64,000 nucleotides of DNA, taken from Cellulophaga sp. 20_2_10. Its GTDB lineage: Bacteria > Bacteroidota > Bacteroidia > Flavobacteriales > Flavobacteriaceae. The stretch lies in assembly GCF_023476645.1 (NCBI RefSeq), contig NZ_JAMCOJ010000002.1, positions 343,561 to 407,560 of the forward strand. The letters run 5' to 3'. Of the stretch, positions 26,117 to 46,500 are shown one piece after another; within the stretch, counting starts at the first letter, position 1, and the number at the start of each line of letters is the position of its first letter. A program made the position numbers and the translations under genes. Under the pieces are notes generated by a model. That model was not told where the DNA came from. It ran no database searches and saw nothing but the letters and a program-made list of their open reading frames with translations.

Positions 26117-26392
26117 ATGAGTAATCAGGAAAAATATTTAGAAGAACTATTAGTAGAAGAAGAGGTAGCAAACAACAATGAGATAGTATTATTTAATGAT
26201 GATGTAAATACATTTGATCATGTTATAGATACTTTAGTTGCTGCTTGCGACCACACACCTTTACAGGCAGAGCAATGTGCTTTTTTAGTGCATTACAAAG
26301 GTAAATGCACTGTAAAAACAGGTGATTATAAAGATTTAGAACCAAGATGTAGCAAACTATTACAAGCAGGCTTAAGTGCAGAGATAGTTTAA
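26117..26392 (+). CDS. clpS: ATP-dependent Clp protease adaptor ClpS
   Basis: Delivers N-degron substrates to ClpAP. The 91-residue protein has a flexible acidic N-terminus (EELLVEEEVANNNE) and the core motif VLFNDDVNTFDHVIDTLVAAC, including the NDDxxT residues that bind the N-terminal residue of the substrate. The helix QAEQCAFLVHYKGKCTVKTG follows. Its 3' end overlaps the stop of the convergent c-type cytochrome gene by four bases, leaving no room for a terminator. Confidence 0.95.
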   Translation: MSNQEKYLEELLVEEEVANNNEIVLFNDDVNTFDHVIDTLVAACDHTPLQAEQCAFLVHYKGKCTVKTGDYKDLEPRCSKLLQAGLSAEIV

Positions 26393-28449
26393 TTAATAAG
26401 AATTTCATCTACAAAAACCCAGCTTTGACCTCCAGGATTTGGATGCCAAACTGGGTTTTTTGTTATGTTTTCAACTTCAATTTTCACATATTTAACTTCA
26501 GTTTCTTCAAAAGTAATATCGTAAAAGGCAATAGCATCGTCTACATACTTTTTTGGAATAGGTAATTTTATAGATTTAAGTAACTTAAAGTCTTTGTTGT
26601 TGTTAGAGACCCAAACTTTATAGCCTATTGGATGAAAAATCCAGCTGGTAGGTTTTGTTAATGAGCCAATAGAAACAGTGCTTATTTTTTTAGGTTCATT
26701 AAAAGCAATAGTTGTATTTAGGTTTTCTCCTTGATAAGCAAGCCAAGCTCCATCTTGAAAATTTACAGTCCCCCTTTTTAAATCTTTTAGGGTGTTTGCA
26801 CCATCACCTCTATAATTTTCATGCGGTTTTTTTTGTAACCAAATAGAATCTAAAAGCAATCCGCTTTTTTTAATATTAGCGGTTACTACATCACTTTGAA
26901 CCCAATCTTTTTTGTATGCAAAAAACTTAACTGTTTTGGATTCTTTAATACGAATAGGTGAGGTATATTTTATTGCGGTGGTATCTGGCTCTGTGCCATC
27001 GGTTGTGTAAAATATAGTAGCACTCTTAAAAACGTGTTCTAATTGTAAATCTAGTTTGTCATTGAAAAAATCTGATGCATCTACTATGTATGGGTTGTTT
27101 AGTACAGCATTATTAAAAAGTGTATCTGCTAAATGCTTTGTAATAAGGTTTGGTTTTTCCTTTTTTAAACGAGCTAATTCGGTATTTGTTATAGCTGTTT
27201 GGTACAAGTATAGTTTTTTTAGATTCTTTAGTTTTTTAATGTATTTAAAAGCATCACTTTTAACAGCAGTACCATATAAATTTAAAGATTCTAGTAAGTT
27301 TAACTTATCAATATCTTTTAAAGCAGCAGAAGTAATTTTAGTTTTTTGTAATTGTAGTTTTAAAAGGTTTTTAAATTTAGGTAAAGCACTAGCTAAATCA
27401 TCGTTAAAATTAGTGTATGCTAAATTTAACTCAATAATGTTTTCTGCGTGTTCGTTTAAATATTTAAAATCTTTAGATGTTATATTTTTCTTGCTGGCTA
27501 ATGTTACAATTAGTAACGGGCTCTTTTCGGCTAAAGGTGTAACGCTATAACCATTTGCATTCATTTTAGAAATCCACTCTAGGGGTACAATTTCTGCTGT
27601 TGCAGTTAATTTCCCTAATGCTGTGGTGTCTTTTTCTAGTGTTTTTAAAATAGATTTTGTTTGTGGACTTACATCAGTTTCTTCAACTGTACAATCAAAA
27701 CAATTGTTATTTTTTATCCACCATTTTAATAAACTAATTTCTTCTGAGGTAAGTTGTACTTTTCCTTTAGGTGGCATATGTAATTTATCGTCTAAAGGCA
27801 AATGTAATCTTGTTATAAGTGAGGCAGCTTCTCCATTAACGGAGTCCAAAATGCTGCCGTTTTCTCCACCAGCTATAATAGATATCTTAGAAGTAAGTAG
27901 TAATTCTCCTTTGGCTTTATTTGGATTGTGGCAGCTTACACATTTAGAGTCGAGAATAGGTTGCACAATGTCTTTATATGCATTAGCTTTATTTATATCT
28001 ACTATTGCAAGTTCAGTTACGGCGTGTTGCTTAAAAAGAAAATCATCTCCATGAGTCATATTTCCTCCTAGGTGACCTGTAAGGCCCAGCAAACCAAGTG
28101 TAATAATAAACAACGGAACATATATTTTTTTGCACCAATTATGTGGCAATGTTCTTAGAATAAAAAGTAAAATACTACAAACGGTTAACCCCACAGCCAT
28201 CCATTTATGTCTAGATAAAGCAACCTCATCATAACCACCATTGTCTCCTAAAAGCCAACCTGTACCTAAAGAAAGTAAGGCGGTAAAAGCGGTTAAACCT
28301 AAGGCTAGTTTGGCAATATCTGTTTGTTCAGATTTTTTAATTTTTAGATAAATCTCTAAAATAAAAGCAAAGGTTAGTATCCCAATTGGTAGGTGTACAA
28401 ACAATGGGTGTAAATTTCCTATCTGGATTGTTAAAAGGTGTATCTGCAT
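26389..28449 (-). CDS. Membrane c-type cytochrome: DUF2231, planctomycete-type cytochrome c, LRR, chitobiase-like and discoidin-like modules
   Basis: A 686-residue multidomain protein. Residues 1-130 form a DUF2231-type membrane domain with about five helices (IGNLHPLFVHLPIGILTFAF). A planctomycete-type cytochrome c domain follows, with one heme site CVSCH at 170-174 and a probable axial Met in KLHMPPKGK near 225. Leucine-rich segments come next (about 320-445: LNLAYTNF, LLKLQLQKTKI, LESLNLYGTAV). A chitobiase/hexosaminidase C-terminal-like module (about 450-530: IFYTTDGTEPDTTAIKYTSP) precedes a discoidin-like module ending GGQSWVFVDEILIN. Last gene of the PSD1 operon. It is probably anchored in the inner membrane with its modules outside the cytoplasm. 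Substrate unknown; the last two modules recur in the GH20 enzyme of this window. Confidence 0.82.
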   Translation of the reverse strand: MQIHLLTIQIGNLHPLFVHLPIGILTFAFILEIYLKIKKSEQTDIAKLALGLTAFTALLSLGTGWLLGDNGGYDEVALSRHKWMAVGLTVCSILLFILRTLPHNWCKKIYVPLFIITLGLLGLTGHLGGNMTHGDDFLFKQHAVTELAIVDINKANAYKDIVQPILDSKCVSCHNPNKAKGELLLTSKISIIAGGENGSILDSVNGEAASLITRLHLPLDDKLHMPPKGKVQLTSEEISLLKWWIKNNNCFDCTVEETDVSPQTKSILKTLEKDTTALGKLTATAEIVPLEWISKMNANGYSVTPLAEKSPLLIVTLASKKNITSKDFKYLNEHAENIIELNLAYTNFNDDLASALPKFKNLLKLQLQKTKITSAALKDIDKLNLLESLNLYGTAVKSDAFKYIKKLKNLKKLYLYQTAITNTELARLKKEKPNLITKHLADTLFNNAVLNNPYIVDASDFFNDKLDLQLEHVFKSATIFYTTDGTEPDTTAIKYTSPIRIKESKTVKFFAYKKDWVQSDVVTANIKKSGLLLDSIWLQKKPHENYRGDGANTLKDLKRGTVNFQDGAWLAYQGENLNTTIAFNEPKKISTVSIGSLTKPTSWIFHPIGYKVWVSNNNKDFKLLKSIKLPIPKKYVDDAIAFYDITFEETEVKYVKIEVENITKNPVWHPNPGGQSWVFVDEILIN

Positions 28450-29255
28450 TATTCTACAATAATTTCGTCAATAAAAAACCAAGGCGTACTATTAGCTCCG
28501 GGATGCCAAGCGGGAATTTTGTCTAAACTTTTAATTGTAATAGTAAAAGAAGAATAAGTGTTGGCTGTCACAGGAACGTTTATAAAATCTATGGTTGGAC
28601 TTTCTTTTGTTTGTGAGCTAGCATTTTTGTTATTATAATTACCAATTACCTTAGAGTTACTATATATAAAGATTTCTTCTGGTGCAAATATCCAATCTCC
28701 TTGTGCAGTAAGTGTATGTAGTGTAATAGTAGAAAGTGAAAGTTCTTTTTCTAAATCTATTTTAATAGTTACTTCATTAGTATTAAAACCTAGCCACGTA
28801 TTATTTTTTTTAAATTGAATTGTTCCACTTTTAAGATCGGTAAGACTACTAGGGCCATTGGCAGGGTAACTAGCACTAGGCATAGGATTAATTGTTACCG
28901 TGGCATTAGAAATAGAATGTTTTACTTTTTTTAATTGAATTTTTATAGCTTCACTTTCTTTAAAATCTGGATGGTAAGCCTTTGCTTTTAAGAGTGAGGA
29001 TTTATCCACCTTTAAGGGAGATGTAATTAATTTAGAGTTGCTAGTAACGCTACTAGTATCTGTAGTATACCTTAGCTCTGTATTGGCTATTGCGGTTCTA
29101 AAGTTAATAGTAGCATAGTTTTTAAAAAATATAGAATCTACGGTGAAATTTGGGGAAACTACCTTGATATCTTTTGTTTGGGTAAAGCTTGTTCTTTTAC
29201 TTTCAATACAAGAAAAAAACAATACAATAACCATTACGTATACTATGTTTTTCAT
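28449..29255 (-). CDS. Lipoprotein with chitobiase-like and discoidin-like modules
   Basis: A 268-residue predicted lipoprotein (lipobox LFFSC, mature start CIESKRTSF). It consists only of two modules. The first (about 30-120: ANTELRYTTDTSSVTSNSKL, LLKAKAYHPDFKESEAIKIQL) matches the chitobiase C-terminal type. The second (about 125-268) is discoidin-like, with GPSSLTDLKSGTIQFKKNNT, LSLSTITLHTL and the end IPAWHPGANSTPWFFIDEII. Both match the C-terminus of the next operon gene and of the GH20 enzyme. A glycan-binding surface protein is the likely role. It overlaps the downstream gene by one base. Confidence 0.8.
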   Translation of the reverse strand: MKNIVYVMVIVLFFSCIESKRTSFTQTKDIKVVSPNFTVDSIFFKNYATINFRTAIANTELRYTTDTSSVTSNSKLITSPLKVDKSSLLKAKAYHPDFKESEAIKIQLKKVKHSISNATVTINPMPSASYPANGPSSLTDLKSGTIQFKKNNTWLGFNTNEVTIKIDLEKELSLSTITLHTLTAQGDWIFAPEEIFIYSNSKVIGNYNNKNASSQTKESPTIDFINVPVTANTYSSFTITIKSLDKIPAWHPGANSTPWFFIDEIIVE

Positions 29256-29273
29256 AGATTAATTGATTGCAAT

Positions 29274-30311
29274 TTATACTCTAGTTAATTTTATAGGATA
29301 CGTTTTTCCAGAGCTCCATTGCGCTACATAAAGATTTTCATCGGTATCTATACAAACGTCATGCGGATTCTTAAAAACTTTTAAAGCCTGTTGCATAGGT
29401 TGTAAAATGCCGTCTTTGCTGTAAATAGGCTCTGTACCTCCTGGAGCAGACACTAATTTATTTTCTTTATTTAAGATGGATACAAAACCTGTATTCATAG
29501 CTCCTTCTCCAGACCAAATAGTAGCGGTATAAATATTTTCTTTATGTATTACAGGTCTGCATACAAAAGCCCCCGGTAAATGTATGGTACTTATATATTC
29601 GCCCTGCATACTAAAGCGTTTAAACTTGTTTTCCATACGGTCTGTAATAAGTAGTGTAGGCGCTGCATTTGCACGTGTGTCTATAGTAATACCGTGTGCG
29701 TTACCAAACAAATGATCTTCTTTGCCTTTACCTCCAAAAACGTTTAGTAAGTGGCCTTTTTCATTGTAATGAAGAATGTGCTGTGCTCCGTAGCCGTCTG
29801 TAATATAAACATCTCCGTTAGCAGCAACAGCAGTTTCTGTAGGTATATATTCTTCTTTATTCTTATATTTTCCAGCAGTTTCAGGGAATTTAAATATTTG
29901 AACCACCTTACCATCTATAGTTGTTTTAATTACTTCATGTCTATTGTTATCTGCTATGTATAAAAAATCTTCTCCGTTTTCTACATTTAACGTTAGTCCG
30001 TGTGCACCTGGAAATTCTGTGCCCCAAACCTCAATTAAATTGCCAGATTTGTCATAAACAATAACATTATTTTTAATGTGATCTGTTAGTAGAATAATTC
30101 TGCCTTTAGAATCTTGTACCATTTCGTGACAATTTTCTACAGGGTAAAAATTAGCATTTAGTGCACCCCAATTTAGATCAATTTTGTATTTAAAATCGCC
30201 GTGACCAATTATTGCATCTTTGTAAGGATGCATAGCATGTAATGCGGGAGTACAGAAAAGTAGTCCAGCGCTAGCTAAACTAGTATTTTGTATAAAGTTT
30301 CTTCTGTTCAT
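29274..30311 (-). CDS. Exported NHL-repeat beta-propeller protein
   Basis: A 345-residue protein beginning MNRRNFIQNTSLASAGLLFC. The twin Arg followed by a hydrophobic stretch suggests Tat export. The body contains NHL-type blades (for example NCHEMVQDSKGRIILLTDH, GAHGLTLNVENGEDFLYIAD, LFGNAHGITIDTRAN and NPHDVCIDTDENLYVAQWSS), consistent with a six-bladed propeller. It is in the middle of the PSD1/DUF1501 operon, 18 and 30 bases from its neighbours. Such propellers commonly bind glycans or act as lyase/peptidyl-alpha-hydroxyglycine lyase-like folds, but no specific activity can be assigned. Confidence 0.82.
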   Translation of the reverse strand: MNRRNFIQNTSLASAGLLFCTPALHAMHPYKDAIIGHGDFKYKIDLNWGALNANFYPVENCHEMVQDSKGRIILLTDHIKNNVIVYDKSGNLIEVWGTEFPGAHGLTLNVENGEDFLYIADNNRHEVIKTTIDGKVVQIFKFPETAGKYKNKEEYIPTETAVAANGDVYITDGYGAQHILHYNEKGHLLNVFGGKGKEDHLFGNAHGITIDTRANAAPTLLITDRMENKFKRFSMQGEYISTIHLPGAFVCRPVIHKENIYTATIWSGEGAMNTGFVSILNKENKLVSAPGGTEPIYSKDGILQPMQQALKVFKNPHDVCIDTDENLYVAQWSSGKTYPIKLTRV

Positions 30312-30341
30312 AAGTGGTTTAGAATGGCTGATTGGTTTTGG

Positions 30342-31835
30342 TTAGGATAATATGTCTTTTATAACATTACCTTCTACATCTGTTAATCTAAATCTACGTC
30401 CTTGGTATTTGTAGGTTAGTTTTTTATGGTCTATACCAAGAAGATGCATCATTGTTGCTTGAAAATCGTGTACATGTACTGGGTTTTTTACAATGTTGTA
30501 CCCAAAGTCATCTGTTTCTCCGTAGCTAATTCCTGGCTTAATACCGCCACCGGCCATCCACATCGTAAAACTTCTCGGGTGGTGATCCCTTCCGTAGTTA
30601 TCCTCAGTTAGTATACCTTGGGAGTAGTTGGTTCTTCCAAACTCGCCACCCCAAACAATAAGTGTATCTTCTAATAAACCACGTTGCTTTAAATCAGCAA
30701 CAAGAGCAGCAGATGCCTGATCTACGTCTTTAGCTTGTTTTTTAATTGCTCCAGGTAAATTGTCATGCTGATCCCAGCCCATATGGTAGAGTTGTATAAA
30801 ACGAACATCTTTTTCTGCTAACTTTCTAGCTAGTAAACAGTTTGCAGCAAAGGTGCCCGGTATTTTAGCATCGGAACCATACATTTTATAAATATAATCT
30901 GGCTCATTATCTATATTCATAACATCTGGGACAGAAGTTTGCATTCTGTATGCCATCTCATATTGTGCAATTCTGCTTTGTATTTCTGGATCTCCAAATT
31001 CTGTGTATTGCTTATCATTTAAAGAGGCTAATTTATCTAAAACTGCACGTTTAGTCTCTTTTGTAGTTCCTTTAGGATCGTTTAAATATAAAACAGGATC
31101 TTTTGCAGCTCTAAATTGAACACCTTGGTGCAATGAATTTAAAAACCCATTACCCCATAATCTTGTATATAGTGGCTGACCTTGTGGTCTACCGGTACCT
31201 CTTGATAACAGGACAGTAAAAGCAGGCAAATTATCGTTTTCACTACCAATACCATAACTTAACCAAGAACCTATACTAGGCCTGCCAGGTTGTTGCGATC
31301 CTGTTTGAAAAAAAGTAACAGCAGGATCGTGGTTTATAGCTTCTGTATGCATAGATTTTACAATACATAAGTCATCTACCATTTTTGCCGTGTAGGGTAA
31401 TAAGTCACTTATCCAAGTGCCATTTTTTCCGTATTGTTTAAAATCGAATTGAGAACCTACCAAAGGAAATTTATCTTGCCCAGAAGTCATTCCTGTTAAA
31501 CGTTGACCGTTTCTTATAGACTCTGGTAAATCTTCACCCCTGCGTAAATTTAAAAGAGGTTTATAATCAAACAACTCTAACTGAGAAGGGCCACCACTCT
31601 GAAACAAATAAATAACTCTTTTAACTTTTGCAGGATGATGCAAGGTATTTAATGCTCCTTTAGAGCCTGCTATTGTGTTAGAAGGCGAAAGTACCCCGTT
31701 TGGACTCTTATTAAAATAACTATAGCCCATTAAGGATGCTAAAGCAGTACCACCAAGACCTAAAGCTGTTTTTCCTAAGAAAGCCCTACGATTTAAAATT
31801 AGCGATCGCTCTTCTAAAATTTTCTTCTCACTCAT
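30342..31835 (-). CDS. DUF1501 protein with Tat signal
   Basis: A 497-residue member of DUF1501, a sulfatase/alkaline-phosphatase-like fold of unknown activity that is abundant in Planctomycetes. The N-terminus ILNRRAFLGKTALGLGGTAL is a Tat signal. Family motifs include RVIYLFQSGGPSQLELFDYK, SMHTEAINHDPAVTFFQTG, LYHMGWDQHDN, LIVWGGEFGRTNYS and GRDHHPRSFTMWMAGGGIK, with His and Asp residues in the positions that bind metals in related phosphatases. It follows the PSD1 gene by two bases, the classical PSD1-DUF1501 pair. Substrate unknown. Confidence 0.9.
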   Translation of the reverse strand: MSEKKILEERSLILNRRAFLGKTALGLGGTALASLMGYSYFNKSPNGVLSPSNTIAGSKGALNTLHHPAKVKRVIYLFQSGGPSQLELFDYKPLLNLRRGEDLPESIRNGQRLTGMTSGQDKFPLVGSQFDFKQYGKNGTWISDLLPYTAKMVDDLCIVKSMHTEAINHDPAVTFFQTGSQQPGRPSIGSWLSYGIGSENDNLPAFTVLLSRGTGRPQGQPLYTRLWGNGFLNSLHQGVQFRAAKDPVLYLNDPKGTTKETKRAVLDKLASLNDKQYTEFGDPEIQSRIAQYEMAYRMQTSVPDVMNIDNEPDYIYKMYGSDAKIPGTFAANCLLARKLAEKDVRFIQLYHMGWDQHDNLPGAIKKQAKDVDQASAALVADLKQRGLLEDTLIVWGGEFGRTNYSQGILTEDNYGRDHHPRSFTMWMAGGGIKPGISYGETDDFGYNIVKNPVHVHDFQATMMHLLGIDHKKLTYKYQGRRFRLTDVEGNVIKDILS

Positions 31836-31837
31836 AA

Positions 31838-34201
31838 CTATCCTTTTGTTATAGTTTCATCTAGATTTAAAATGGTATGCGCTGTTAAAGACAATGCGGC
31901 TAACTTTTCTGATGAAATTGCAGTATCTACTTTGTAAGAACCAATAGATAAGTATTCGTCTACCTTAATTTCATTGCTACTTATTCTGTTAAGCATATCG
32001 TTGTAATGGTTGCTAAGCTCTGTAATTTCGGTTTCGTCTGGTAACCTAGATGTTGCCGATTCAAAAATGTAAACTATTTGTTTTGTTAGGTCTTGGTTCG
32101 TTGTTATTGCATTACTTGCTAATACCCTAGCAGCTTCTATAAGTTGCGGATCGTTTAAAAGAACCAATGCTTGTAGCGGAGTATTTGTTTCTTGTCTTTT
32201 TACAGAACATAAATCTCTAGATGCAGCATCAAAAGTTATCATACTAGGTGGTGGTACCGTTCTTTTCCAGAAGGTGTATAAACTTTTTCTGTACAAATCT
32301 TTGCCTTCACTTAAAATATAAGAAGATGTACTACCGCCACCGCCACCAGTCGTTTCTTCCCAAATACCATCTGGTTGGTAAGGTTTTACACTTGGACCAC
32401 CAACTTCTGTATTTAATAACCCACTAACAAAAAGTGCTTGGTCTCTTATCATTTCGGCAGATAATCGTAATCTTGGTGCGCGAGAAAGCCATTTGTTGGG
32501 CGGGTCTTTTTCTAAATTTTCTTTTGATATAACTGTACTCTGTTGGTAGGTTTGGGACATAGCTATAGATTTAAGAATGTCTTTAGTGTCCCAGCCACTG
32601 TTTCTAAACTTAAGGGCTAAATAATCTAATAATTCTGGGTGAGAAGGCAGCGCTCCTTGATTGCCAAAATCATAAGAACTAGCAACTATGCCTGTGCCAA
32701 ACATACGTTGCCAAAAACGATTTACAGCAACTCTAGCAGTTAATGGGTTGTCTTTATGAAACAACCACTTAGCTAGTCCTAATCGGTTTTTTTCAAATTC
32801 TTCAGGAAATTTTAATATAGTTTCTGGAGTATCTGGATATACTTTTTCTCCGTGTTGGTCGTAAGCCCCTCTATTAAGTATATATGCTTGCCTTGGCGTC
32901 TCCATTTCTTGCATTACCATTACAGGAATTTCTTTAGCTTCAGATTTTTCTAACCGGACAAAATTTAGAACGTCACTTTTTTCTTTTTCTGTAATAGTTA
33001 TGTACGGTTTAGGAATTACACCAGCACCACCATTAACTAGTCCGTCTTCATCTATATTATTAAAAAAGCTAAAAAAAGAGAAGTGTGCTTTTTGACTTAT
33101 TGGATCGTATTTGTGGTCGTGGCAACGTGCACACTCTAAGGTTAATCCTAAAAAAGCCGTACCAAAAGTTGTAATACGATCTTCTACATATTCTACTCTG
33201 TATTCTTCAGGAATTACACCACCTTCATAAGTAATCTTATGGTTGCGATTAAAACCTGTAGCTAAAATTTGTTCTAAAGATGCGTTTGGTACTAAATCTC
33301 CTGCTAGTTGATCTGTTACAAACTCGTTGTACGCCATGTTATTTTTAAAAGCGTGAATAACCCAATCTCTCCAAGGCCACATTGTACGTTCAAAATCGTC
33401 TTGGTAACCGTGAGTATCTGCATAGCGAGCAATATCCATCCATTCGGCTGCCATATTCTCTGCATAATCTTGAGAAGAAAGTAAATTGTCTATTACTTTT
33501 TCATAGGCATTAGAAGATGAGTCTTTTAAAAATTGATGTATTGCTTTTGGCGATGGAGGTAAGCCAGTTAAATCGAAATAGACTCTTCTGATTAATTTTT
33601 CTTTAGATGCTTTTTTAGAAGGTTTTAGATTATTTTCTTCTAGTTTTTGATAAATAAAATTATCTATTTCATTGTTGCCCCAATCTTCTTTTTTCTCAGG
33701 AACAGTTTGTTCTACAGGGGGTATAAAAGCCCAGTGATCTTTATATTCGGCACCTTGCTCTACCCATTTTTTTAGTATCGCTTTTTCGTAATTGGTAAGA
33801 ATTAAGTTCGATTCTAGAGGAGGCATAATAACACCTGGATCTTCAGAGTAAATGCGGTTTATCATTCCGCTTTTTTCAATATTGCCAGGAACTATGGCAA
33901 AATGATCCATTTTTTCACCTAAAGCTTTATAGGCTTCTTCTGGCGATACCATAGAAAAGTTACCTTCTACAGCATTTTTATCTGGTCCGTGACATATAAA
34001 ACACCTATCTGATATTATTGGTTTTACGTGGAAGGTAAAGTCAATTTTATCAGGAATAGCAATTTCACCATTTTCAGCAATTGCTACTTCAGAATATTTG
34101 TTATCTGTTTTACAGCTTACCATACTAATGGTAAATAAAATAGCAAGCGCTATTTTTAGCAGAGACTTTTTAGCTAATAGAAACCAGTTCTTTTTTATCA
34201 T
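31838..34201 (-). CDS. PSD1-type c-type cytochrome lipoprotein (DUF1549/DUF1553)
   Basis: A 787-residue predicted lipoprotein (lipobox SMVSC, Cys30). An N-terminal planctomycete-type cytochrome c domain has heme motif CFICH (67-71) and a likely Met ligand in VIMPPLE. It is followed by DUF1549 (about 175-375; YFDLTGLPPSP, WMDIARYADTHGYQ, QLAGDLVPNA), containing a second CxxCH, CARCH at 357-361. DUF1553 (about 480-740; NPLTARVAVNRFWQRMFG, LPSHPELLDYLA, SRDLCSVKRQETNTPLQALV) follows. First gene of a five-gene operon. The family is found in Planctomycetes, Verrucomicrobia and marine Bacteroidota. Redox or catalytic activity is unproven. Confidence 0.92.
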   Translation of the reverse strand: MIKKNWFLLAKKSLLKIALAILFTISMVSCKTDNKYSEVAIAENGEIAIPDKIDFTFHVKPIISDRCFICHGPDKNAVEGNFSMVSPEEAYKALGEKMDHFAIVPGNIEKSGMINRIYSEDPGVIMPPLESNLILTNYEKAILKKWVEQGAEYKDHWAFIPPVEQTVPEKKEDWGNNEIDNFIYQKLEENNLKPSKKASKEKLIRRVYFDLTGLPPSPKAIHQFLKDSSSNAYEKVIDNLLSSQDYAENMAAEWMDIARYADTHGYQDDFERTMWPWRDWVIHAFKNNMAYNEFVTDQLAGDLVPNASLEQILATGFNRNHKITYEGGVIPEEYRVEYVEDRITTFGTAFLGLTLECARCHDHKYDPISQKAHFSFFSFFNNIDEDGLVNGGAGVIPKPYITITEKEKSDVLNFVRLEKSEAKEIPVMVMQEMETPRQAYILNRGAYDQHGEKVYPDTPETILKFPEEFEKNRLGLAKWLFHKDNPLTARVAVNRFWQRMFGTGIVASSYDFGNQGALPSHPELLDYLALKFRNSGWDTKDILKSIAMSQTYQQSTVISKENLEKDPPNKWLSRAPRLRLSAEMIRDQALFVSGLLNTEVGGPSVKPYQPDGIWEETTGGGGGSTSSYILSEGKDLYRKSLYTFWKRTVPPPSMITFDAASRDLCSVKRQETNTPLQALVLLNDPQLIEAARVLASNAITTNQDLTKQIVYIFESATSRLPDETEITELSNHYNDMLNRISSNEIKVDEYLSIGSYKVDTAISSEKLAALSLTAHTILNLDETITKG

Positions 34202-34356
34202 ACCTTAATAAAATAAGCATTTATACAGGTACTAAATATTAGTATTATAAAATGGATTTACAATAAATATCGACGAATAACAAATGATAATAGCTTAATA
34301 TGATTAAAAAACTAAGCTTCTGTTCTTTTTTTAAGTACTAAAATGCTGTTTTAATA

Positions 34357-35073
34357 TTAAGCATTTCCTAATAGGGTTTCTTTTACATCATTAATATAAC
34401 TACGACCAATAGTATAGCGTATACCTCCAATTTCTAAACTGTTACCTTCTATTGTATCTACTTTACAGATAGATATTGTATACGACCTGTGTATTCTTAT
34501 AAATTTATCGCTAGGTAACTCCTCTGTAAAACTGCTTAAAGTTCTGTGAATTATGTATTTGTCTGATTTTGTTTTTATGCGGATGTAATCTTTTAAACTT
34601 TCAATTACCAAAATGTCTTCTAAAAATATCTTTTGTAATTTCTTTTTATCAATCTTTATAAAAATACTAGGATTTTCTGCAGTATTACTTGTGCTAACAG
34701 GAGTTGTGCTGCTTTGTTTAAGCTTAATAATACGTTGTACCGACTGTAAAAATCTAGGGAAAGGAATTGGTTTTACTAAGTAGTCTATAGCTTGTAACTC
34801 GTAACTGGTTAATGCATATTCTTCATGTGCAGTAGTCATTACAACCATAGGGACAGATTGTAGATTTTTTAAAAAATCTAAACCATCTAAAATGGGCATA
34901 TTAATATCTAAAAAAATGATGTCTACAGTGTTCTTCTGAACAAAAGTGGTTGCAGCAACAGCGTTAGAAAAGGTTTCTATTAATTCTAATTCTTGTACTT
35001 GAGAAACATAATTTTTTAAAACATTAATAGCAAGCGGCTCATCATCTATAATTATGGTTCGTAATTTAATCAT
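34357..35073 (-). CDS. LytTR-family response regulator
   Basis: A 238-residue response regulator. The receiver domain has acidic residues IIIDDEP, phospho-acceptor Asp56 (FLDINMP), Thr in MTTAHEEYA and Lys in LVKPI. The C-terminal LytTR DNA-binding domain (about 135-235) contains EDILVIESLKDYIRIKT, the DKFIRIHRSYTISI block and TIGRSY. The start overlaps the upstream kinase stop by four bases, so they form an operon. The target genes are not shown. The PSD1 operon lies downstream and the GH operon is divergent. Confidence 0.93.
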   Translation of the reverse strand: MIKLRTIIIDDEPLAINVLKNYVSQVQELELIETFSNAVAATTFVQKNTVDIIFLDINMPILDGLDFLKNLQSVPMVVMTTAHEEYALTSYELQAIDYLVKPIPFPRFLQSVQRIIKLKQSSTTPVSTSNTAENPSIFIKIDKKKLQKIFLEDILVIESLKDYIRIKTKSDKYIIHRTLSSFTEELPSDKFIRIHRSYTISICKVDTIEGNSLEIGGIRYTIGRSYINDVKETLLGNA

Positions 35074-36155
35074 ACTTTAAGTTTTAGAATTACATTAAAC
35101 ATTTTCTCTTTTTCATAAATAGATAAGTGGTAGTCTTCTTTTTTGTAACCCAATTCCAGTCGTTTTTTTAAATTGCTTAGTCCAATACCACCACTTCTAA
35201 TAGGTATTAAACTTTCTGGACTATGTACGGGGATAGTATTAGATACTTTAAAATGTAAAAAGTCTTCACTTACTTGTACATCTATATCTATAATCATATC
35301 TCCAATGTTCTTGCTAGCACCGTGTTTAAAGCAATTTTCTATAACAGGTATTAATAACATCGGCGAAATACGTTTTCCTTCTAGGTCTCCTGAAATACTA
35401 AAATTTATGTTTAAAGATTCATCAAAACGTAAACGCTCTAAGTCTAAGTAGTTTTGTATACAGTCTAATTCACTTTTAAGATCTTGTTTATTTTTTTTGG
35501 TTGCGTACAATAAGTAACGCATTAATTCAGATAGCTTTAAAATTACTTCGGGAGCTCTATCAGACTTTTCTAAGGTTAAAGAATACACATTATTAAGTGT
35601 GTTAAAAAAGAAATGAGGCGATACTTGCGAACGTAAAAAACGCAATTCTGTACTTAATTGTCTTTTTTCTAATTCGTGTAGTTTACTATGTTCTTTTAGC
35701 CAATCTATAGTAAGTTTTATAGCGGCAACAAAAGAAGAAACATAAAGCTCGCCAACCATCATAGTTGTAGCGTAGTTTATACTTAATCCCTCTAATTCTT
35801 CAGGGCCTTCTGGCCAAACATTGGGACCAATAAAATAATATGTTGCATAGTATTTTACGAATAGCATTACAAGTAGTGTGGCAATTACAGAAATGGTATA
35901 ACTAAAGTACTTTTTTTTGAAAACGAACTTTGGCATTAAGTAATAGACATTAAAGTATGCAATTGCCATATGTATTGGAAAACCAATAAGATTCATATGA
36001 AAAGAAAGCATAAAATCTTGGTGAATATTACTATACCTTAAACTGTTAAATATAAAGTAGATACACCAGAAAGTAATGTGGTGTTTGTAGTTAATATCAA
36101 AACCTTTAGAGGAGTTGTGATCAATAAAAGAGTCTACATTATTATTTATGTTCAT
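35070..36155 (-). CDS. LytS/YehU-type sensor histidine kinase
   Basis: A 361-residue sensor. Four membrane helices lie in the first 150 residues with no large periplasmic domain. A His_kinase domain follows with the phospho-acceptor region LRFLRSQVSPHFFFNTLNNV (His about 190), an N-box-like LIPVIENCFKHGASKN, and GGIGLSNLKKRLEL as the ATP lid region. This is the kinase type that pairs with LytTR regulators, as here. It starts divergently from the glycan-degradation operon across about 250 bases. Confidence 0.92.
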   Translation of the reverse strand: MNINNNVDSFIDHNSSKGFDINYKHHITFWCIYFIFNSLRYSNIHQDFMLSFHMNLIGFPIHMAIAYFNVYYLMPKFVFKKKYFSYTISVIATLLVMLFVKYYATYYFIGPNVWPEGPEELEGLSINYATTMMVGELYVSSFVAAIKLTIDWLKEHSKLHELEKRQLSTELRFLRSQVSPHFFFNTLNNVYSLTLEKSDRAPEVILKLSELMRYLLYATKKNKQDLKSELDCIQNYLDLERLRFDESLNINFSISGDLEGKRISPMLLIPVIENCFKHGASKNIGDMIIDIDVQVSEDFLHFKVSNTIPVHSPESLIPIRSGGIGLSNLKKRLELGYKKEDYHLSIYEKEKMFNVILKLKV

Positions 36156-36403
36156 TTATTTGGTTTCGTTGTTTTTGTCTCTACTATTTTATCGTTTAGC
36201 ATTTGCCTGTCGTTATTGGTCTAAAATTATTTTCAGTATAAATAAAAAAAAGAATATTTATAAAGAGTTGTTGTACAGTATAAAACTAGATAGCCCTGCT
36301 TTGTACTATATGCAGAATAGGACGCGTGAAAAGTATAAAAAATAATTTAATTAACAACTAAATTATAATAAGGTTAAAATAAAGTTACCAATAATATAAG
36401 ATT

Positions 36404-37465
36404 ATGAGTGTAGATACTTCTGTAAAAACCAAACAAAAAATAGCTGTTTTTCTTTTTTTATTATACCTAGGTTGTGCTGCTGCGGCTGCCCAAGAAATGC
36501 CAAAAAAATATACAGCTTTTAAAGTGTTAGATAGTCTAACTGTAGATGGTTTAGATACAGAGGAATCTTGGAAAAATGCAGAGTGGTCAGATATTTTTAT
36601 AGATATTGAAGGAGATAAAAAAGCAAATTATACCACAAGAGTTAAAATGCTTTGGGATGCAAAATACCTGTATTTTTTCACAAAATTAGAAGAGCCTCAT
36701 ATTTGGGGAGATATAACAAAAAGGGATGCTGTAATTTTTCATAACAACGATTTTGAAATCTTCATAGACCCTAAAGGCACCACTCATAATTATATGGAAT
36801 TAGAGGTAAATGTGTTAAATACCGTTTGGGATTTGTTGCTTACAAAAACCTATAGTCAAGGTGGTGCCGCTATAAATAATTGGGATATAAACGGATTAAA
36901 ATCTGCCGTACATGTAAACGGAACTTTAAATAATAGTTCTGATACAGATAAAAGCTGGACAGTTGAAATTGCTATTCCTTGGGCAGCTATGTTAGAACCT
37001 TCTAATTTAAAAACAATACCTGTAAATGATTTTTGGCGTATAAATTTTTCGCGAGTGCAATGGCAGCATACTATTACAGATGGTACGTATGCAAAAAAGA
37101 AAGATGCTAATGGTAAAGCACTACCAGAGTACAATTGGGTTTGGTCTCCGCAAGGTGTAATTAATATGCATAAGCCTAATAAATGGGGTTATGTTTATTT
37201 TTCTGATGAGGTGGATGGATCTCTACCAGAATGGAATATTCCAAAAGACGAACATCTTAAATGGTATTTGTATGATGTTTTTTTAAACTTTGTAGATCAT
37301 AAGGATGAAAAATTAATACAACCTAAAAAGGTATTAGGTGCACTAATAAAACCTACGTTAGAAAAGCATACAACAGGATTTAATATTTGGGTAAAGAGTC
37401 CATTTACAAATAAAATACTAGCAATTAAAGAAGATGGTAAATTTAGTAGTTATGAAGCAGAATAA
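36404..37465 (+). CDS. Exported CBM9-like carbohydrate-binding protein
   Basis: A 353-residue secreted protein: the signal peptide runs to about residue 30 (LGCAAAAAQ). The mature part is a CBM9-like domain (about 40-240): FKVLDSLTVDGLDTEESWKN, TRVKMLWDAKYLYFFTKLEE, NNDFEIFIDPKGTTHNYMEL, WTVEIAIPWAAM, FWRINFSRVQW. The C-terminal 100 residues are an uncharacterised extension with Trp-rich patches. Such proteins occur in polysaccharide utilisation loci, presumably binding sugars at the cell surface or in the periplasm. First gene of the operon, overlapping the next gene. Confidence 0.85.
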   Translation: MSVDTSVKTKQKIAVFLFLLYLGCAAAAAQEMPKKYTAFKVLDSLTVDGLDTEESWKNAEWSDIFIDIEGDKKANYTTRVKMLWDAKYLYFFTKLEEPHIWGDITKRDAVIFHNNDFEIFIDPKGTTHNYMELEVNVLNTVWDLLLTKTYSQGGAAINNWDINGLKSAVHVNGTLNNSSDTDKSWTVEIAIPWAAMLEPSNLKTIPVNDFWRINFSRVQWQHTITDGTYAKKKDANGKALPEYNWVWSPQGVINMHKPNKWGYVYFSDEVDGSLPEWNIPKDEHLKWYLYDVFLNFVDHKDEKLIQPKKVLGALIKPTLEKHTTGFNIWVKSPFTNKILAIKEDGKFSSYEAE

Positions 37466-38576
37466 GATATTTTTACAGGTAGTAGTGGGTTTTTTAGCCG
37501 TGATATTGTTGTTTTCTTGTGAAGAGAAAAAATCCAAAGAAACAGTGGCTCCAGTGGCTAATGCTACTACAGATAGTTTTACATTTTGGACGTGGACATC
37601 TGCGAATGCAGAAAAAGAAGATGCTGCATACCAACAAGAGTTTGCTAAATATAACGCAAACGGAATTACAGATGTTTTAATTAATACAGGTACAGACCCT
37701 AAGTTATTAAGTAGAATTACGCCTATAGCAAAAAAAGAGGGTTTAAATGTACACGCGTGGATGTTTACAGTTAACAGACCAGGAGATGCAATTGCAGAAC
37801 AACACCCAGATTGGTACGCAGTTAGTAGAGATGGTAAATCTTGTTTTGATGAGCCACCGTATGTGGGTTATTACAAATGGTTGTGTCCTACTAGAAAAGA
37901 ATCTAAAGCACATATTTTAAGTTTGGTAGAAGGTTTAGCAAAAGTAGAAGGTGTAGCAAGTGTACATTTAGATTATATTCGTTATTCAGATATTTTTTTA
38001 CCTATTGGCTTATTACCAAAATATAATTTAAAACAAGAGGTAGAGTTACCTGAATTCGATTTTTGTTACTGTGATGTATGTGTAGCTGAGTTTGAAAAGG
38101 GGCACCATAAAAACCCTAGAGATTCAGAAAATCCTGCTATAGATATGGAGTGGAAACAGTTTCGATTAAATAAAGTAAAAGCTATTGTAGACGAAGCTTA
38201 TGAAATTGCCCATAATAACAATAAACTATTAACTGCAGCAGTATTTCCTTACCCAGAAATGGCAGATCATATGGTGCGTCAACGCTGGGATAAATGGAAC
38301 GTAGATAAAGTATTACCAATGATTTATCACAATTTTTACAATGAAGAAATAGATTGGATTGGTTATGCTACAGGAGAGGGAGTAAAAGATCTTAAAAATT
38401 CTAAAACCGAATTACATACAGGTATTTATGTGCCTGATATGTCGGTTTCTGATCTAGAAAAAGCAATTCTATTAGCAAAAGATAATGGCGCAAAAGGAGT
38501 TTCTATCTTTGATGGTAATGCACTTACAGATGAACAATTTAAAGTGATAAAAAGACTTAGTCAAGAACTAAATTAA
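37452..38576 (+). CDS. Family 10-like (GHL10/DUF187-type) putative glycoside hydrolase lipoprotein
   Basis: A 374-residue predicted lipoprotein (MKQNKIFLQVVV..., lipobox LLFSC). The catalytic-like TIM-barrel shows the GHL10 pattern: DSFTFWTWTSANAEKEDAAY, then KKEGLNVHAWMFTVNRPG, ASVHLDYIRYSDIF (the conserved DYIRY block) and WNVDKVLPMIYHNFYNEEID. An unusual CYCDVC cysteine cluster lies near residue 210. An ATG six codons upstream is possible, but the second ATG gives a cleaner lipoprotein signal. It overlaps the CBM9-like gene by 14 bases. Activity on glycans is inferred from family and context. Confidence 0.83.
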   Translation: MKQNKIFLQVVVGFLAVILLFSCEEKKSKETVAPVANATTDSFTFWTWTSANAEKEDAAYQQEFAKYNANGITDVLINTGTDPKLLSRITPIAKKEGLNVHAWMFTVNRPGDAIAEQHPDWYAVSRDGKSCFDEPPYVGYYKWLCPTRKESKAHILSLVEGLAKVEGVASVHLDYIRYSDIFLPIGLLPKYNLKQEVELPEFDFCYCDVCVAEFEKGHHKNPRDSENPAIDMEWKQFRLNKVKAIVDEAYEIAHNNNKLLTAAVFPYPEMADHMVRQRWDKWNVDKVLPMIYHNFYNEEIDWIGYATGEGVKDLKNSKTELHTGIYVPDMSVSDLEKAILLAKDNGAKGVSIFDGNALTDEQFKVIKRLSQELN

Positions 38577-38588
38577 TTGTTGCAATTT

Positions 38589-40913
38589 ATGAAGCACTCT
38601 AAATACATATTAGCCTTTTTATTGTTAGTAGCTGCTTTTGGTTGTGAAAATAAAGAAGAAAAAATATTTACAAAAGAGGATATAAATATAATTCCTAAAC
38701 CACTATTTACAAAGCTAAACACCGGTAGTTTTAGGTTTACGAATGCCACCAAATTAGTTGCAGAAACAAAAGAACAACAAAATTTATTGCGCTCTTTTTC
38801 TATTAAATTGGAGAAAGTCTCTGGCATAAAAACAGAAGTTGTTTCTACAGTACCCACAAGTAATTATATTCAGTTTGTGGTAGATACTACTTTAAAAGAA
38901 GAGGAGTATAACCTGGCAATAAAAACAAATACAATAGTTGTAAAAGCAAATGCATATTCAGGTTTTGTTTATGGTCTAGAAACTATTAAACAACTACTTC
39001 CTGTAACTATAGAAAGTGCTACGTTGGTACAAGAAGATTGGGTTGTTCCTAATCTAGAAATTAGAGATACTCCTCGTTTTAAATGGCGTGGTTTAATGTT
39101 AGATGTTTCTCGTCATTTCTTTGAGGTAGATTATATTAAAAAAACCTTAGACCGTATGGCAATGCTAAAAATGAATACTTTTCATTGGCATTTGGTAGAC
39201 GATCAAGGCTGGCGTATAGAAATAAAAAAATATCCAAAACTTACAGAAGTGGGTGGTTTTAGAGTAGACCAAGAAGATAAGCCTTGGAACGCTAGACCTA
39301 ACGCTTCTTTAGGAACAGAAGCTGCTTACGGTGGTTTTTATACCCAAGAACAAATAAAAGAAGTTGTTGCTTATGCAGCAGAAAGAGGTATTACGGTAGT
39401 TCCAGAAATAGAAATGCCTGCTCATGTTAGTAGTGCAATAGCAGCGTATCCAGAATTTTCTTGTTTTGCTAAACCTATTGTGGTTCCGTCTGGTGGTGTT
39501 TGGCCAATAACGGATATTTACTGCGCTGGAAAAGAAGAAACGTTTACTTTTATAGAGGATGTTTTAACAGAGGTGATGAATTTGTTTCCGTCTAAATATA
39601 TACACGCTGGCGGAGATGAAGCTACTAAAACCAATTGGAAAACCTGTCCGCATTGTGCAGCTAGAATACAGGCAGAAGGTTTAACAAACGTAGAAGAGTT
39701 GCAAAGCTATTTTATTAAAAGAATAGAAGGTTTTATAAGTTCTAAAGACCGAGTTTTAATTGGTTGGGACGAGATTTTAGAAGGAGGTTTGGCACCTGGA
39801 GCAACGGTGATGAGTTGGCGAGGTGTAAAAGGAGGTTTAGAAGCATCTGCAGAAGGGCATGATGTTGTAATGACTCCAGGAACACATTGTTATTTTGATC
39901 ATTACCAAGGAGACCAAGATAAAGAACCTCTTGCTTTTGGTGGGTATACACCTTTACGTAAAGTGTATAATTTTGATCCTGTAGTAGAGGGTATGTCTGT
40001 TGCACAAGAAAAGCACGTGTTAGGCGGACAAGCTAATCTATGGGCAGAGTATTTGCCAACAGAAGAGCAGTCCGAGTATATGATTTTTCCTAGACTAGCA
40101 GCTATGTCAGAAGCTGTATGGAGTTCAAAGGAAAATAAGGATTGGACAAATTTTTCAGGCCGCGTAAAAGAGTTGTTTAAGCGTTACGATGTAATGGGGG
40201 TTAATTATGCTAAAAGTGCTTATCAAATTACAACAGATACTAAAATTGATGTAAAAACGGGAATTTTAACCATTGCTTTAAAAAATGAATTTCCTAATTC
40301 TGATATTAGATATTCTATAGATGGTAGTGCTGTTCATCAATCTTCATTTCAATATAAAAAACCTATTACGTTAACTGCTTCAACAAAGATAAAAGCAGCA
40401 ATGTTTGAAAACGGAAAAAAAGTAGGCCCGGTTTTAGAGAAAGAAATTAACTACCATAAAGCTACTGCTAAGGAGGTTGTTTACAAAGAGGAGTATCATA
40501 AAAGTTACCAAGGAGCAAAAGAAGTGGGATTGGTAAATGTGCTGCGAGGTTCTAAAAATTTCCACGACGGTCAATGGCAAGGCTGGTTAGGTAACAATAT
40601 GGAAGTGGTTATAGATTTAGAGAAAGAAACCGAATTTTCTAAAATGACTTTAGGTACATTAGAAAATCAAGGTTCTGGTATTTATTTTCCAATAAAAGTT
40701 GAAGTGTTTACATCTAAACATAGAAAAAAGTTTACCAAAGTAGGAGAGATTAGTAGAGCATTTAAAATCAATGGAAAATCAGAATTAAAAGATTTTACAA
40801 TAGATTTTGATCAAACAAAAGCAAGGTATATCAAAGTAGTAGCAACGAACTTAAGCCGTCCGCCAACAGGAGGAGGAGCTTGGTTGTTTGTAGATGAAAT
40901 TGTTGTAGAATAA
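38589..40913 (+). CDS. GH20 beta-N-acetylhexosaminidase lipoprotein
   Basis: Removes terminal beta-linked GlcNAc or GalNAc. From the ATG at 38589 the product has 774 residues, with lipobox AAFGC (Cys19). Order: GH20b-type N-terminal domain (about 35-160); GH20 barrel (about 163-530) with FHWHLVDDQGWRIEIKKYP (from 198) and the catalytic pair Asp343-Glu344 in HAGGDEAT; chitobiase C-terminal-like module (about 550-620: IRYSIDGSAVHQSSFQYKKP); and discoidin-like module (about 630-774: LRGSKNFHDGQWQGWLGNN, ending GGGAWLFVDEIVVE). It lies in the same operon as a GH92 mannosidase, which suggests action on N-glycan-like substrates. Confidence 0.94.
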   Translation: MKHSKYILAFLLLVAAFGCENKEEKIFTKEDINIIPKPLFTKLNTGSFRFTNATKLVAETKEQQNLLRSFSIKLEKVSGIKTEVVSTVPTSNYIQFVVDTTLKEEEYNLAIKTNTIVVKANAYSGFVYGLETIKQLLPVTIESATLVQEDWVVPNLEIRDTPRFKWRGLMLDVSRHFFEVDYIKKTLDRMAMLKMNTFHWHLVDDQGWRIEIKKYPKLTEVGGFRVDQEDKPWNARPNASLGTEAAYGGFYTQEQIKEVVAYAAERGITVVPEIEMPAHVSSAIAAYPEFSCFAKPIVVPSGGVWPITDIYCAGKEETFTFIEDVLTEVMNLFPSKYIHAGGDEATKTNWKTCPHCAARIQAEGLTNVEELQSYFIKRIEGFISSKDRVLIGWDEILEGGLAPGATVMSWRGVKGGLEASAEGHDVVMTPGTHCYFDHYQGDQDKEPLAFGGYTPLRKVYNFDPVVEGMSVAQEKHVLGGQANLWAEYLPTEEQSEYMIFPRLAAMSEAVWSSKENKDWTNFSGRVKELFKRYDVMGVNYAKSAYQITTDTKIDVKTGILTIALKNEFPNSDIRYSIDGSAVHQSSFQYKKPITLTASTKIKAAMFENGKKVGPVLEKEINYHKATAKEVVYKEEYHKSYQGAKEVGLVNVLRGSKNFHDGQWQGWLGNNMEVVIDLEKETEFSKMTLGTLENQGSGIYFPIKVEVFTSKHRKKFTKVGEISRAFKINGKSELKDFTIDFDQTKARYIKVVATNLSRPPTGGGAWLFVDEIVVE

Positions 40914-46300: not shown

Positions 46301-46500
46301 TACCAGAAGCAATGTTAGAAAAGACATTTATTAATAGTGTAAGCGTTTCTTTAATTGCAAGAAACTTATTCTACATTTCAAGAAGTATAGATAATGTAGA
46401 CCCAGAAAGTACATATAATGTAGGTAACTCACAAGGGTTAGAATATTTTGGTGTACCATCAACTAGAAACTATGGTTTTAGTCTAAATGTAAAATTTTAA
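43393..46500 (+). CDS. SusC/RagA-family TonB-dependent outer membrane transporter
   Basis: Imports oligosaccharides across the outer membrane together with the SusD lipoprotein encoded next. The 1035-residue product has a signal peptide (TTGMVAQ), a carboxypeptidase-regulatory-like domain (SKTVTGTVTDESGMPLLGVN, about 24-100), and a TonB-box/plug region (GEVVVTALGIKKEAKALGYS, then SLQGKVAGVNITQNSTGAAG). A 22-strand-type barrel follows to a C-terminal Phe (FSLNVKF). It sits 261 bases after the GH92 gene, a gap that may carry its own promoter, and 4 bases before susD. Confidence 0.96.
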   Translation: MQRKTHYLLLFVLFLLTTGMVAQSKTVTGTVTDESGMPLLGVNVLEKGTSNGTSTDFDGKYTITVADESSVLEFTSIGYTLKTSFVTGKTTVNVTMAEDAEQLGEVVVTALGIKKEAKALGYSLTEVGGDELSNVKQVSAINSLQGKVAGVNITQNSTGAAGSSRVIIRGNSTLTGNNQPLYVVDGIPIGNDNNGSSGTYGGSDGGDGISSINPDDIATVSVLKGGAAAALYGSRAGNGVIIITTKNGSQKKGLGVEISSSVTFDEVDTSLTDFQTTYGQGTRGRVPSNQSEAFDLGLSSWGPKLDGSSVVQWDGVERPYSYAGDNREHFYRTGTTFINTIAITSGSENMSYRLSVSDLDNEDIVPNSGINRKSFSLNTSAVLADKLTSQVNVKYIVENATNRPRLSDAPGNANYSVALLSPNIDVRDMNPGANPDGSERGYSANIYSQNPYYAAYNFSNEDSKNRIIASTSLRYEILDWLYASTRVGVDHYTRKATNVEPWGTAYKVLGGMTETEGRYTQIDADVMLGVNKAITDKFTIDGLLGANSNHIKTENLYLGGDNFVVPGFEDISNLRDQSRSRDYQERKISGIYGSLGFAYDKWAYLTFTGRNDWFSTLSYPGKTTPNNEFYFSVNSSIILSDVLELPSFIDFLKIRGGYSGVAGGGDSAYQLSPTYQIFGQGHQGQTLGRINGSSVPNADLVPWEKDETEIGLDLRLFGSRLSLDVAYYQNETTKDIVNISTSVFSGYDSATANIGSLENKGIEFLISGTPIKTEDFSWNTSFNGAYNKSEVTATNDDGNPISLDEPRTQNARITHIVGEPYGSIVGVSYNRDDTGNIIYDIDSDGVPIAQEGERKILGEGVPPLTLGWSNTFRYKDFNLGFLIDGKFGGQILSGTNALGYSTGLHKTTLEGRENGLEVSGIDGDTALPFTTTVAPEDLQTYYGRVSRIAEEFVEDSDYIKFRELSIGYTLPEAMLEKTFINSVSVSLIARNLFYISRSIDNVDPESTYNVGNSQGLEYFGVPSTRNYGFSLNVKF

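Follow-up and report, generated by a model that had tools for sequence, protein, structure and literature searches.

The window analyzed here, a stretch of 64,000 nucleotides from Cellulophaga sp. 20_2_10 (contig NZ_JAMCOJ010000002.1, positions 343,561 to 407,560), contains a redox operon for a PSD1 protein, a DUF1501 protein, an NHL propeller protein, a 268-residue lipoprotein, and a 686-residue membrane cytochrome. The operon and a histidine kinase/LytTR regulator pair lie on the minus strand, divergent from a glycan locus on the plus strand that begins at 36404 and includes a GH20 enzyme, two GH92 proteins, and a SusC/SusD pair (SusCD). Among named relatives, Cellulophaga fucicola DSM 24786 is closest, with a cytochrome of 94% identity. 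An earlier note on this DNA had proposed that the cytochrome, the lipoprotein, and GH20 end in the same module pair and that the redox system acts on, or docks to, the same amino-sugar-containing glycan as GH20 and GH92; these genes and their neighbors were found where the note had placed them.

The C-terminal module pair of three window proteins

The cytochrome, the lipoprotein, and GH20 do end in a homologous pair of modules, an Fn3_assoc/CHB_HEX_C_1 part followed by a part with discoidin fold. In blastp comparisons of the window proteins, residues 466-686 of the cytochrome aligned with 564-778 of GH20 (E 2e-22), residues 449-685 of the cytochrome with 32-267 of the lipoprotein (E 1e-20 to 4e-21), and residues 49-268 of the lipoprotein with 565-778 of GH20 (E 7e-15 to 2e-14), at identities of 24-26%. 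Fn3_assoc (PF13287) and CHB_HEX_C_1 (PF13290) scored above the Pfam cut-offs in all three proteins. F5_F8_type_C (PF00754, the discoidin or CBM32 type) exceeded its cut-off of 28.2 bits only in GH20 (32.6 bits); it remained below in the cytochrome (18.5 bits) and was not reported by the Pfam scan of the lipoprotein. As the C-terminal region of the lipoprotein's AlphaFold2 model (predicted local distance difference test score 94.5) matches discoidin/CBM32-type chains, we read the low scores as sequence divergence with the predicted β-sandwich fold, common to the window modules, retained. The motif L-DL-RGT/SxxFxDGxW given in the earlier note fits the lipoprotein loosely, since its version, LTDLKSGTIQFKKNNTW, lacks the "DG" and ends in WFFIDEIIVE.

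A profile search (E<=1e-3) found exactly three such modules in the own genome, all in these window proteins. The nearest solved relative of the module is the C-terminus of BT0459 (PDB 6q63), a GH20 enzyme of the gut bacterium Bacteroides thetaiotaomicron that acts on N-glycan antennae; the window GH20 matches it with E 1.4e-163 over residues 74-777, comprising the catalytic domain and the C-terminal pair. BT0459 is a hydrolase, whereas in the window the pair is also carried by a cytochrome and by a stand-alone lipoprotein. The features are collected in Table 1. The listed GH20 frame starts at a TTG, and an ATG four codons further in looks like the more natural start.

Table 1. Features of the window (positions counted from its first nucleotide; CTD, C-terminal module pair; LRR, leucine-rich repeat; Tat, twin-arginine translocation).
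Feature	Position	Strand	Basis
686-aa membrane cytochrome; DUF2231 12-132, PSCyt1 heme domain 170-229	26389..28449	-	Pfam
Cytochrome C-terminal half: LRR region, Fn3_assoc/CHB_HEX_C_1 462-525, discoidin-like C-terminus		-	Pfam; LRR and F5_F8 below cut-offs
CTD of cytochrome	26392..27114	-	profile match E 1.1e-81, contig 369952-370674
Heme c motif CVSCH of cytochrome	27928..27942	-	sequence, conserved
268-aa lipoprotein, signal peptide and CTD only	28449..29255	-	
CTD of lipoprotein	28452..29234	-	profile match E 1.1e-76
NHL/6-bladed β-propeller protein, Tat-like N-terminus NRRNFIQ	29274..30311	-	Pfam NHL E 6e-10
DUF1501 protein, Tat-like N-terminus	30342..31835	-	Pfam PF07394 E 9e-157
PSCyt1-PSCyt2(DUF1549)-PSD1(DUF1553) diheme lipoprotein, short form	31838..34201	-	Pfam; lipoprotein by reading
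First heme c motif CFICH of PSD1	33989..34003	-	
Second heme c motif CARCH of PSD1	33119..33133	-	
LytTR response regulator, upstream of PSD1, same strand	34357..35073	-	translation read
Histidine kinase paired with LytTR regulator	35070..36155	-	translation read; recurrence
CBM9_1-like protein	36404..37465	+	Pfam PF06452 E 4e-11
GHL10 lipoprotein, putative glycosidase	37434..38576	+	Pfam PF02638 E 2e-9
GH20 β-N-acetylhexosaminidase, BT0459 type, with CTD	38577..40913	+	Pfam PF00728 E 1e-123
CTD of GH20	40209..40910	+	profile match E 1.3e-58
GH92 α-mannosidase family	40924..43131	+	Pfam; TIGR01180
SusC-like TonB-dependent transporter	43393..46500	+	translation read; homologues in relatives
SusD-like lipoprotein	46505..47989	+	translation read; homologues in relatives
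Second GH92	48125..50428	+	Pfam

Beyond the window (L264, contig 423999-443998), three sulfatase-labelled frames lie about 23-31 kb past its end. Together with a regulator of the hybrid two-component system type they occupy a region about 16-31 kb downstream that is perhaps another glycan locus.

The redox operon and its alternating modules

Planctomycetes and Verrucomicrobia have many PSD1 and DUF1501 proteins, and DUF1501 is the usual neighbor of PSCyt/PSD genes. In the window, PSD1, DUF1501, NHL, lipoprotein, and cytochrome follow one another with gaps of 2, 30, and 18 bp and a final 1-bp overlap; the spacing of the operon is tight. The PSD1 protein unites PSCyt1, PSCyt2, and PSD1 in one chain (Pfam PF07635 2.9e-13, PF07583 7.7e-86, PF07587 2.1e-100). 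For comparison, we used the best 80 of 547 relatives as named loci; 56 of them had full flanks around a module-bearing cytochrome, and all 56 carried PSD1 and DUF1501 labels. The full-flank counts, as well as the WH-loop, swap, and neighbor counts below, include duplicates (C. fucicola G005 = L072, Wocania arenilitoris G023 = L114, and G309 = L131), and gene labels were assigned from the window proteins only (loci of the genus, Wocania G023, L042, and L052) or from 31 query proteins by phmmer (named loci, carriers, and loci such as G304 and L264).

The putative redox residues are conserved. Both CxxCH motifs of PSD1 (67-71 and 357-361) are invariant in 47 aligned sequences, and the cytochrome residues His 14, 19, 81, 126, and 133, CxxCH 170-174, and Met225 are shared by 91 or more of 93 module-bearing homologues and by all 18 module-less ones. 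This pattern would fit a chain from the PSD1 diheme via the cytochrome c heme and a membrane heme b to quinone. An RRxF-type motif occurs in 74/76 DUF1501 and 41/51 NHL homologues, and both proteins look Tat-exported, while PSD1 and the 268-residue protein look like lipoproteins by reading of their N-termini. From these N-termini, the redox machinery is probably periplasmic and would meet imported fragments, in line with the argument of He et al. for PSCyt proteins. Since the cytochrome appears from its sequence to sit in the inner membrane, any docking would likewise be periplasmic and on imported fragments. The DUF1501 protein shows weak kinship to the phosphodiesterase and sulfatase superfamily, both below cut-off. 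For the PSD1 model, the search of solved structures gave no convincing relative; the hydrazine synthase alpha subunit (5c2v) has a low Z, which can reflect a common arrangement, and showed no other resemblance.

The consulted part of He et al. (2017; PMC5615132) describes carbohydrate-binding modules on some PSCyt proteins and proposes a role of PSCyt proteins in carbohydrate metabolism. The link between PSCyt and carbohydrates was thus already proposed in 2017, and "undescribed", as the earlier note had called the system, is too strong. The PSCyt/PSD proteins of Planctomycetes and Verrucomicrobia, as described in that part, likewise combine PSCyt and PSD, are of heme c type, and stand beside conserved families of unknown genes. 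The window differs from them in that its glycan-type module is carried by a DUF2231-PSCyt1-LRR membrane cytochrome and, separately, by a lipoprotein, that its PSD1 is short, and that a GH20/GH92 SusCD locus adjoins the operon, here in a member of the Bacteroidota.

The presence of the module on the cytochrome goes along with the length of PSD1. Module-less cytochromes of about 460 residues occur in sister operons with a longer PSD1. Among 99 cytochrome-PSD1 pairs, PSD1 was short for 80 of 81 cytochromes with the module and long for 15 of 16 without it; it was also short in the remaining two pairs, whose cytochromes have a different C-terminus. Exceptions are L099, with a 1068-residue frame that is perhaps fused, as no LytTR frame is present, and L060, which is incomplete in its stretch. 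Pfam scans of three long PSD1 proteins gave Laminin_G_3 for the first, a CBM_6 match below threshold (23.8 of 28.9 bits) for the second, and no recognized insert for the third. One long-PSD1 locus (L052) has a Tat-type GFO_IDH_MocA protein, a GH29, and a SusC-like gene as neighbors. The simplest reading would be that each operon has a single putative glycan-binding place, which PSD1 provides in one form and the cytochrome together with the lipoprotein in the other.

Carriers and genomic neighborhood of the module

We searched 148 Bacteroidota genomes for the module and classified only matches that included the discoidin part. Since the genome searches scored part of the candidates per genome (e.g., 7/27 or 17/36), the 58 genomes with matches refer to scored candidates, and weaker modules as well as cytochromes lacking a module may be undercounted. 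The 72 classified carriers comprised 23 GH20, 18 GH92, 10 GH163/DUF4838 (the same family according to the consulted part of PMC9870897), 7 PSCyt cytochromes, 2 lipoproteins, 2 GH29, 1 GH38, 1 GH2, 1 phosphodiesterase, and 7 others, three with a weak GH42 match and four without an assigned catalytic domain (L228, L231, L235, L236). Pfam scans covered nine of ten unlabelled carriers that are not lipoproteins, L235 being the exception; G164:C37, G153:C47, Fn3_assoc-only matches, and the own genome's three modules stand outside the 72. GH20, GH92, and GH163 together account for 51 of the 72 carriers, so the module does not occur across unrelated operons, a possibility that the earlier note had raised against its own proposal. 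The query profile of 49 rows consisted mainly of lipoprotein and cytochrome sequences, with only four GH20 and two sulfatase rows, and the majority of hydrolases was therefore not built in.

In a tree of 165 modules, sequences grouped by carrier, with 17 changes compared to 102 in shuffles (cytochromes 3, lipoproteins 3, GH92 3, GH163 5, GH20 6). As the modules cluster by carrier, the sharing within the window is old. A WH loop precedes the final W-x-F-x-DE in 91/94 cytochrome, 50/50 lipoprotein, and 27/27 GH92 modules, in 7/12 GH163 modules, and in only 12/42 GH20 modules; where conserved, it is only a hint of putative glycan binding. One Saprospiraceae locus (L088, 8771-10714) encodes a fusion of the module with a BNR (sialidase-like) propeller, and a frame of equal length in another (L091, 8771-10714) also has the module. 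In the Muricauda myxillae locus, Fn3_assoc is matched in part by a second short protein (L107:22083-22811).

The module-bearing cytochrome was found in 4 of 17 congeners searched, and GH20 and GH92 stand beside it in all four. Neighbors in the 56 full-flank loci were NHL (38), module lipoprotein (32), GH92 (17), and GH20 (10). Scored more strictly and with loci assigned to families by hand, 20 of the 29 full-flank loci of Flavobacteriaceae type have GH20, GH92, GH163, PNGase F, GHL10, or CBM9-like genes within about 10 kb. Both histidine kinase and LytTR labels are present in 11 of these 29 loci. CBM9-like and/or GHL10 genes (window 36404-38576) adjoin the operon in 10 of the 29, and GHL10 may be an uncharacterized enzyme of these loci.

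To relate the cytochrome to gene content, we surveyed 149 Flavobacteriaceae genomes, one per genus, in tests that treat genera as independent, which is not fully so. The module-bearing cytochrome occurs in 13 of them. GH163 was present in 6/13 of these compared to 5/136 others (p 5e-5), and GH92 in 12/13 compared to 70/136 (p 0.004); the 23 genomes with module-less cytochromes only showed no such enrichment (GH163 2/23, GH92 13/23). Within 30 kb of a listed GH92 or GH163 we found at least 6 of 13 module-bearing but at least 1 of 66 listed module-less cytochromes (p 4e-5), figures that are lower bounds in both groups, as they rest on the GH92 matches listed, among which the window's own nearer GH92 does not appear. 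These lists cover the cytochromes other than G018:C12, G290:C14, and G019:C12 (another C-terminus), two partial ones, and DUF2231 proteins of about 945 residues.

In Wocania arenilitoris (G023), PSD1, DUF1501, and the cytochrome lie between a module-bearing GH20 and a GH92, and the surrounding locus further comprises GH18, PNGase F, module-bearing GH163, GH29, and a GH123-type protein; NHL and a module lipoprotein are not labelled in this operon. A GH92 with GH20, GH29, and/or Asparaginase_2 labels flanks the operon in L112, L113, L115, L121-L123, L130, and L131. A galactarate/altronate dehydratase and a short-chain dehydrogenase/reductase also lie inside this N-glycan locus of Wocania G023 with the redox operon (L041:10785-13218); a metabolism of oxidized sugars would fit an oxidative step. 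In G021 (L042:4543-9005), a module-bearing cytochrome adjoins a sulfatase and an Asparaginase_2, and the 20-kb stretch shows no PSD1/DUF1501 labels. In Rhabdobacter roseus (L118:3986-18915), the operon is situated between two heparinase II/III-like lyases with a SASA esterase and sulfatases, which suggests a glycosaminoglycan-like substrate in that lineage.

Candidate substrate and alternative explanations

The explanation we favor, although with clear reservation, is that the window encodes a variant of the PSD1/DUF1501-type redox operon with the BT0459-type module on its cytochrome and lipoprotein, which may act periplasmically on mannose- and N-acetylhexosamine-rich oligosaccharides of N-glycan type supplied by the adjoining SusCD/GH20/GH92 locus. 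In such a scheme, fragments would enter via SusCD and, judging from the enzyme families, be cut by GH92 and GH20. The putative binding modules of lipoprotein and cytochrome, whose fold is predicted, would hold them near the PSD1-DUF1501 pair, and the diheme PSD1 could then, with DUF1501 and the NHL propeller, perform an oxidation or the oxidative removal of a substituent. Electrons might pass to the c heme of the cytochrome, with its conserved CxxCH and Met225, and through the DUF2231 membrane domain with its five near-invariant histidines to the quinone pool, the direction of transfer being left undefined. In a broader and more doubtful form, which we put forward only tentatively, PSD1/DUF1501 cytochrome operons in general could encode glycan oxidoreductases of the periplasm whose electron-transfer core stays the same while their glycan-binding modules are swappable (a LamG or CBM6-like insert for PSD1, the BT0459-type pair for cytochrome and lipoprotein), the window version being aimed at the same mannose/N-acetylhexosamine N-glycan-type oligosaccharides.

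Among the known N-glycan utilization loci of Bacteroidota, which comprise GH18, GH20, GH92, GH163, and PNGase, the Wocania locus has the whole set with the redox operon inside, whereas the window has GH20, two GH92, and SusCD and in this agrees with their GH20 + GH92 with SusCD content (glycoside hydrolases by Pfam, SusCD by reading). Excerpts of open-license PMC literature yielded no mention of a cytochrome operon in N-glycan loci. The shared modules described in the earlier note are borne out, in a more specific form than it had supposed, and its proposal of a common amino-sugar glycan is supported in part, but the substrate is better described as N-glycan-type (mannose/N-acetylhexosamine), and some loci hint at sulfated or glycosaminoglycan-like glycans.

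Several observations weigh against the favored explanation. Genome searches of the own genome gave no match to GH18, GH85, or GH163, where the GH163 controls were silent as well but 11/149 relatives positive, and none to PNGase F-C, for which the control genomes were equally silent. No N-glycan-releasing enzyme was therefore identified; lacking matches to GH18, GH85, and GH163, the window locus resembles N-glycan loci in its GH20/GH92 content but is not counted among them. The three window modules fall into separate tree groups, those of cytochrome and lipoprotein apart from the hydrolase modules, so sharing alone does not show the one ligand that the earlier note had implied, and the ligands may differ. 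The window GH20 module has no WH loop. Two congeners (G003, G017) have the module in a frame of 785-786 residues without cytochrome match. A third exception to the alternation of modules, G304 (G304:C6:180000-219999; L251, L252), combines a short PSD1 with a module-less cytochrome that lies about 22 kb from GH92 genes. In L137, a biotin carboxylase is found just upstream of the operon. Only 4 of 27 full-flank loci outside Flavobacteriaceae have the glycan-related neighbors named above. The statistics, moreover, ignore shared ancestry and duplicate loci.

The remaining 23 of these 27 loci, together with the separate tree groups formed by the modules of each carrier, would suit a free-standing general redox system with a vertically inherited module, in which the adjacency of GH20 and GH92 merely reflects neighborhood history or co-regulation by the histidine kinase/LytTR pair and no common substrate exists. 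We regard this as unlikely, as the operon is embedded among co-oriented glycosidase genes in several genera (L114, L121, L131, L253-L255, in some cases one genome twice) and GH92 and GH163 are enriched above the level of module-less sister operons. It is about equally improbable, in our judgment, that the module is an assembly domain rather than a lectin, with discoidin domains holding the redox complex together or to hydrolases, which would not imply any glycan chemistry.

Another substrate would also have to be considered, namely an amino-sugar or mannose polymer such as a sulfated or glycosaminoglycan-like glycan or marine mannan, degraded with the help of sulfatases. A sulfatase label is found near the operon in 9/37 Flavobacteriaceae and 7/43 other loci, in several cases (L075, L077, L079) immediately following the cytochrome gene, and two sulfatase-labelled proteins carry the module themselves (L096, L106; by Pfam for L096). 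The Rhabdobacter surroundings, the missing GH18, GH85, and GH163, and the three sulfatase-labelled frames beyond the window end point in the same direction. However, none of the 20 Pfam-scanned window proteins exceeded a sulfatase cut-off, none is so labelled in the C. fucicola locus L072, and the window GH20 and GH92 point to N-acetylhexosamine and mannose. We consider such a polymer the least probable of the substrates and scenarios discussed here.

Three points are new beyond what was proposed in 2017: the cytochrome's BT0459-type module, the position of the operon within N-glycan-type loci in Flavobacteriaceae, and the way in which binding modules alternate. The Cellulophaga variant, from a genus with cultured members, offers a definable glycan locus and a small putative binding protein of 268 residues, and with them concrete substrates. 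If glycan oxidation by such operons is true, a redox branch would be added to glycan-utilization loci currently interpreted as chiefly hydrolytic, and if the reading with swappable modules is true as well, N-glycan breakdown in marine Flavobacteriaceae would be partly oxidative.

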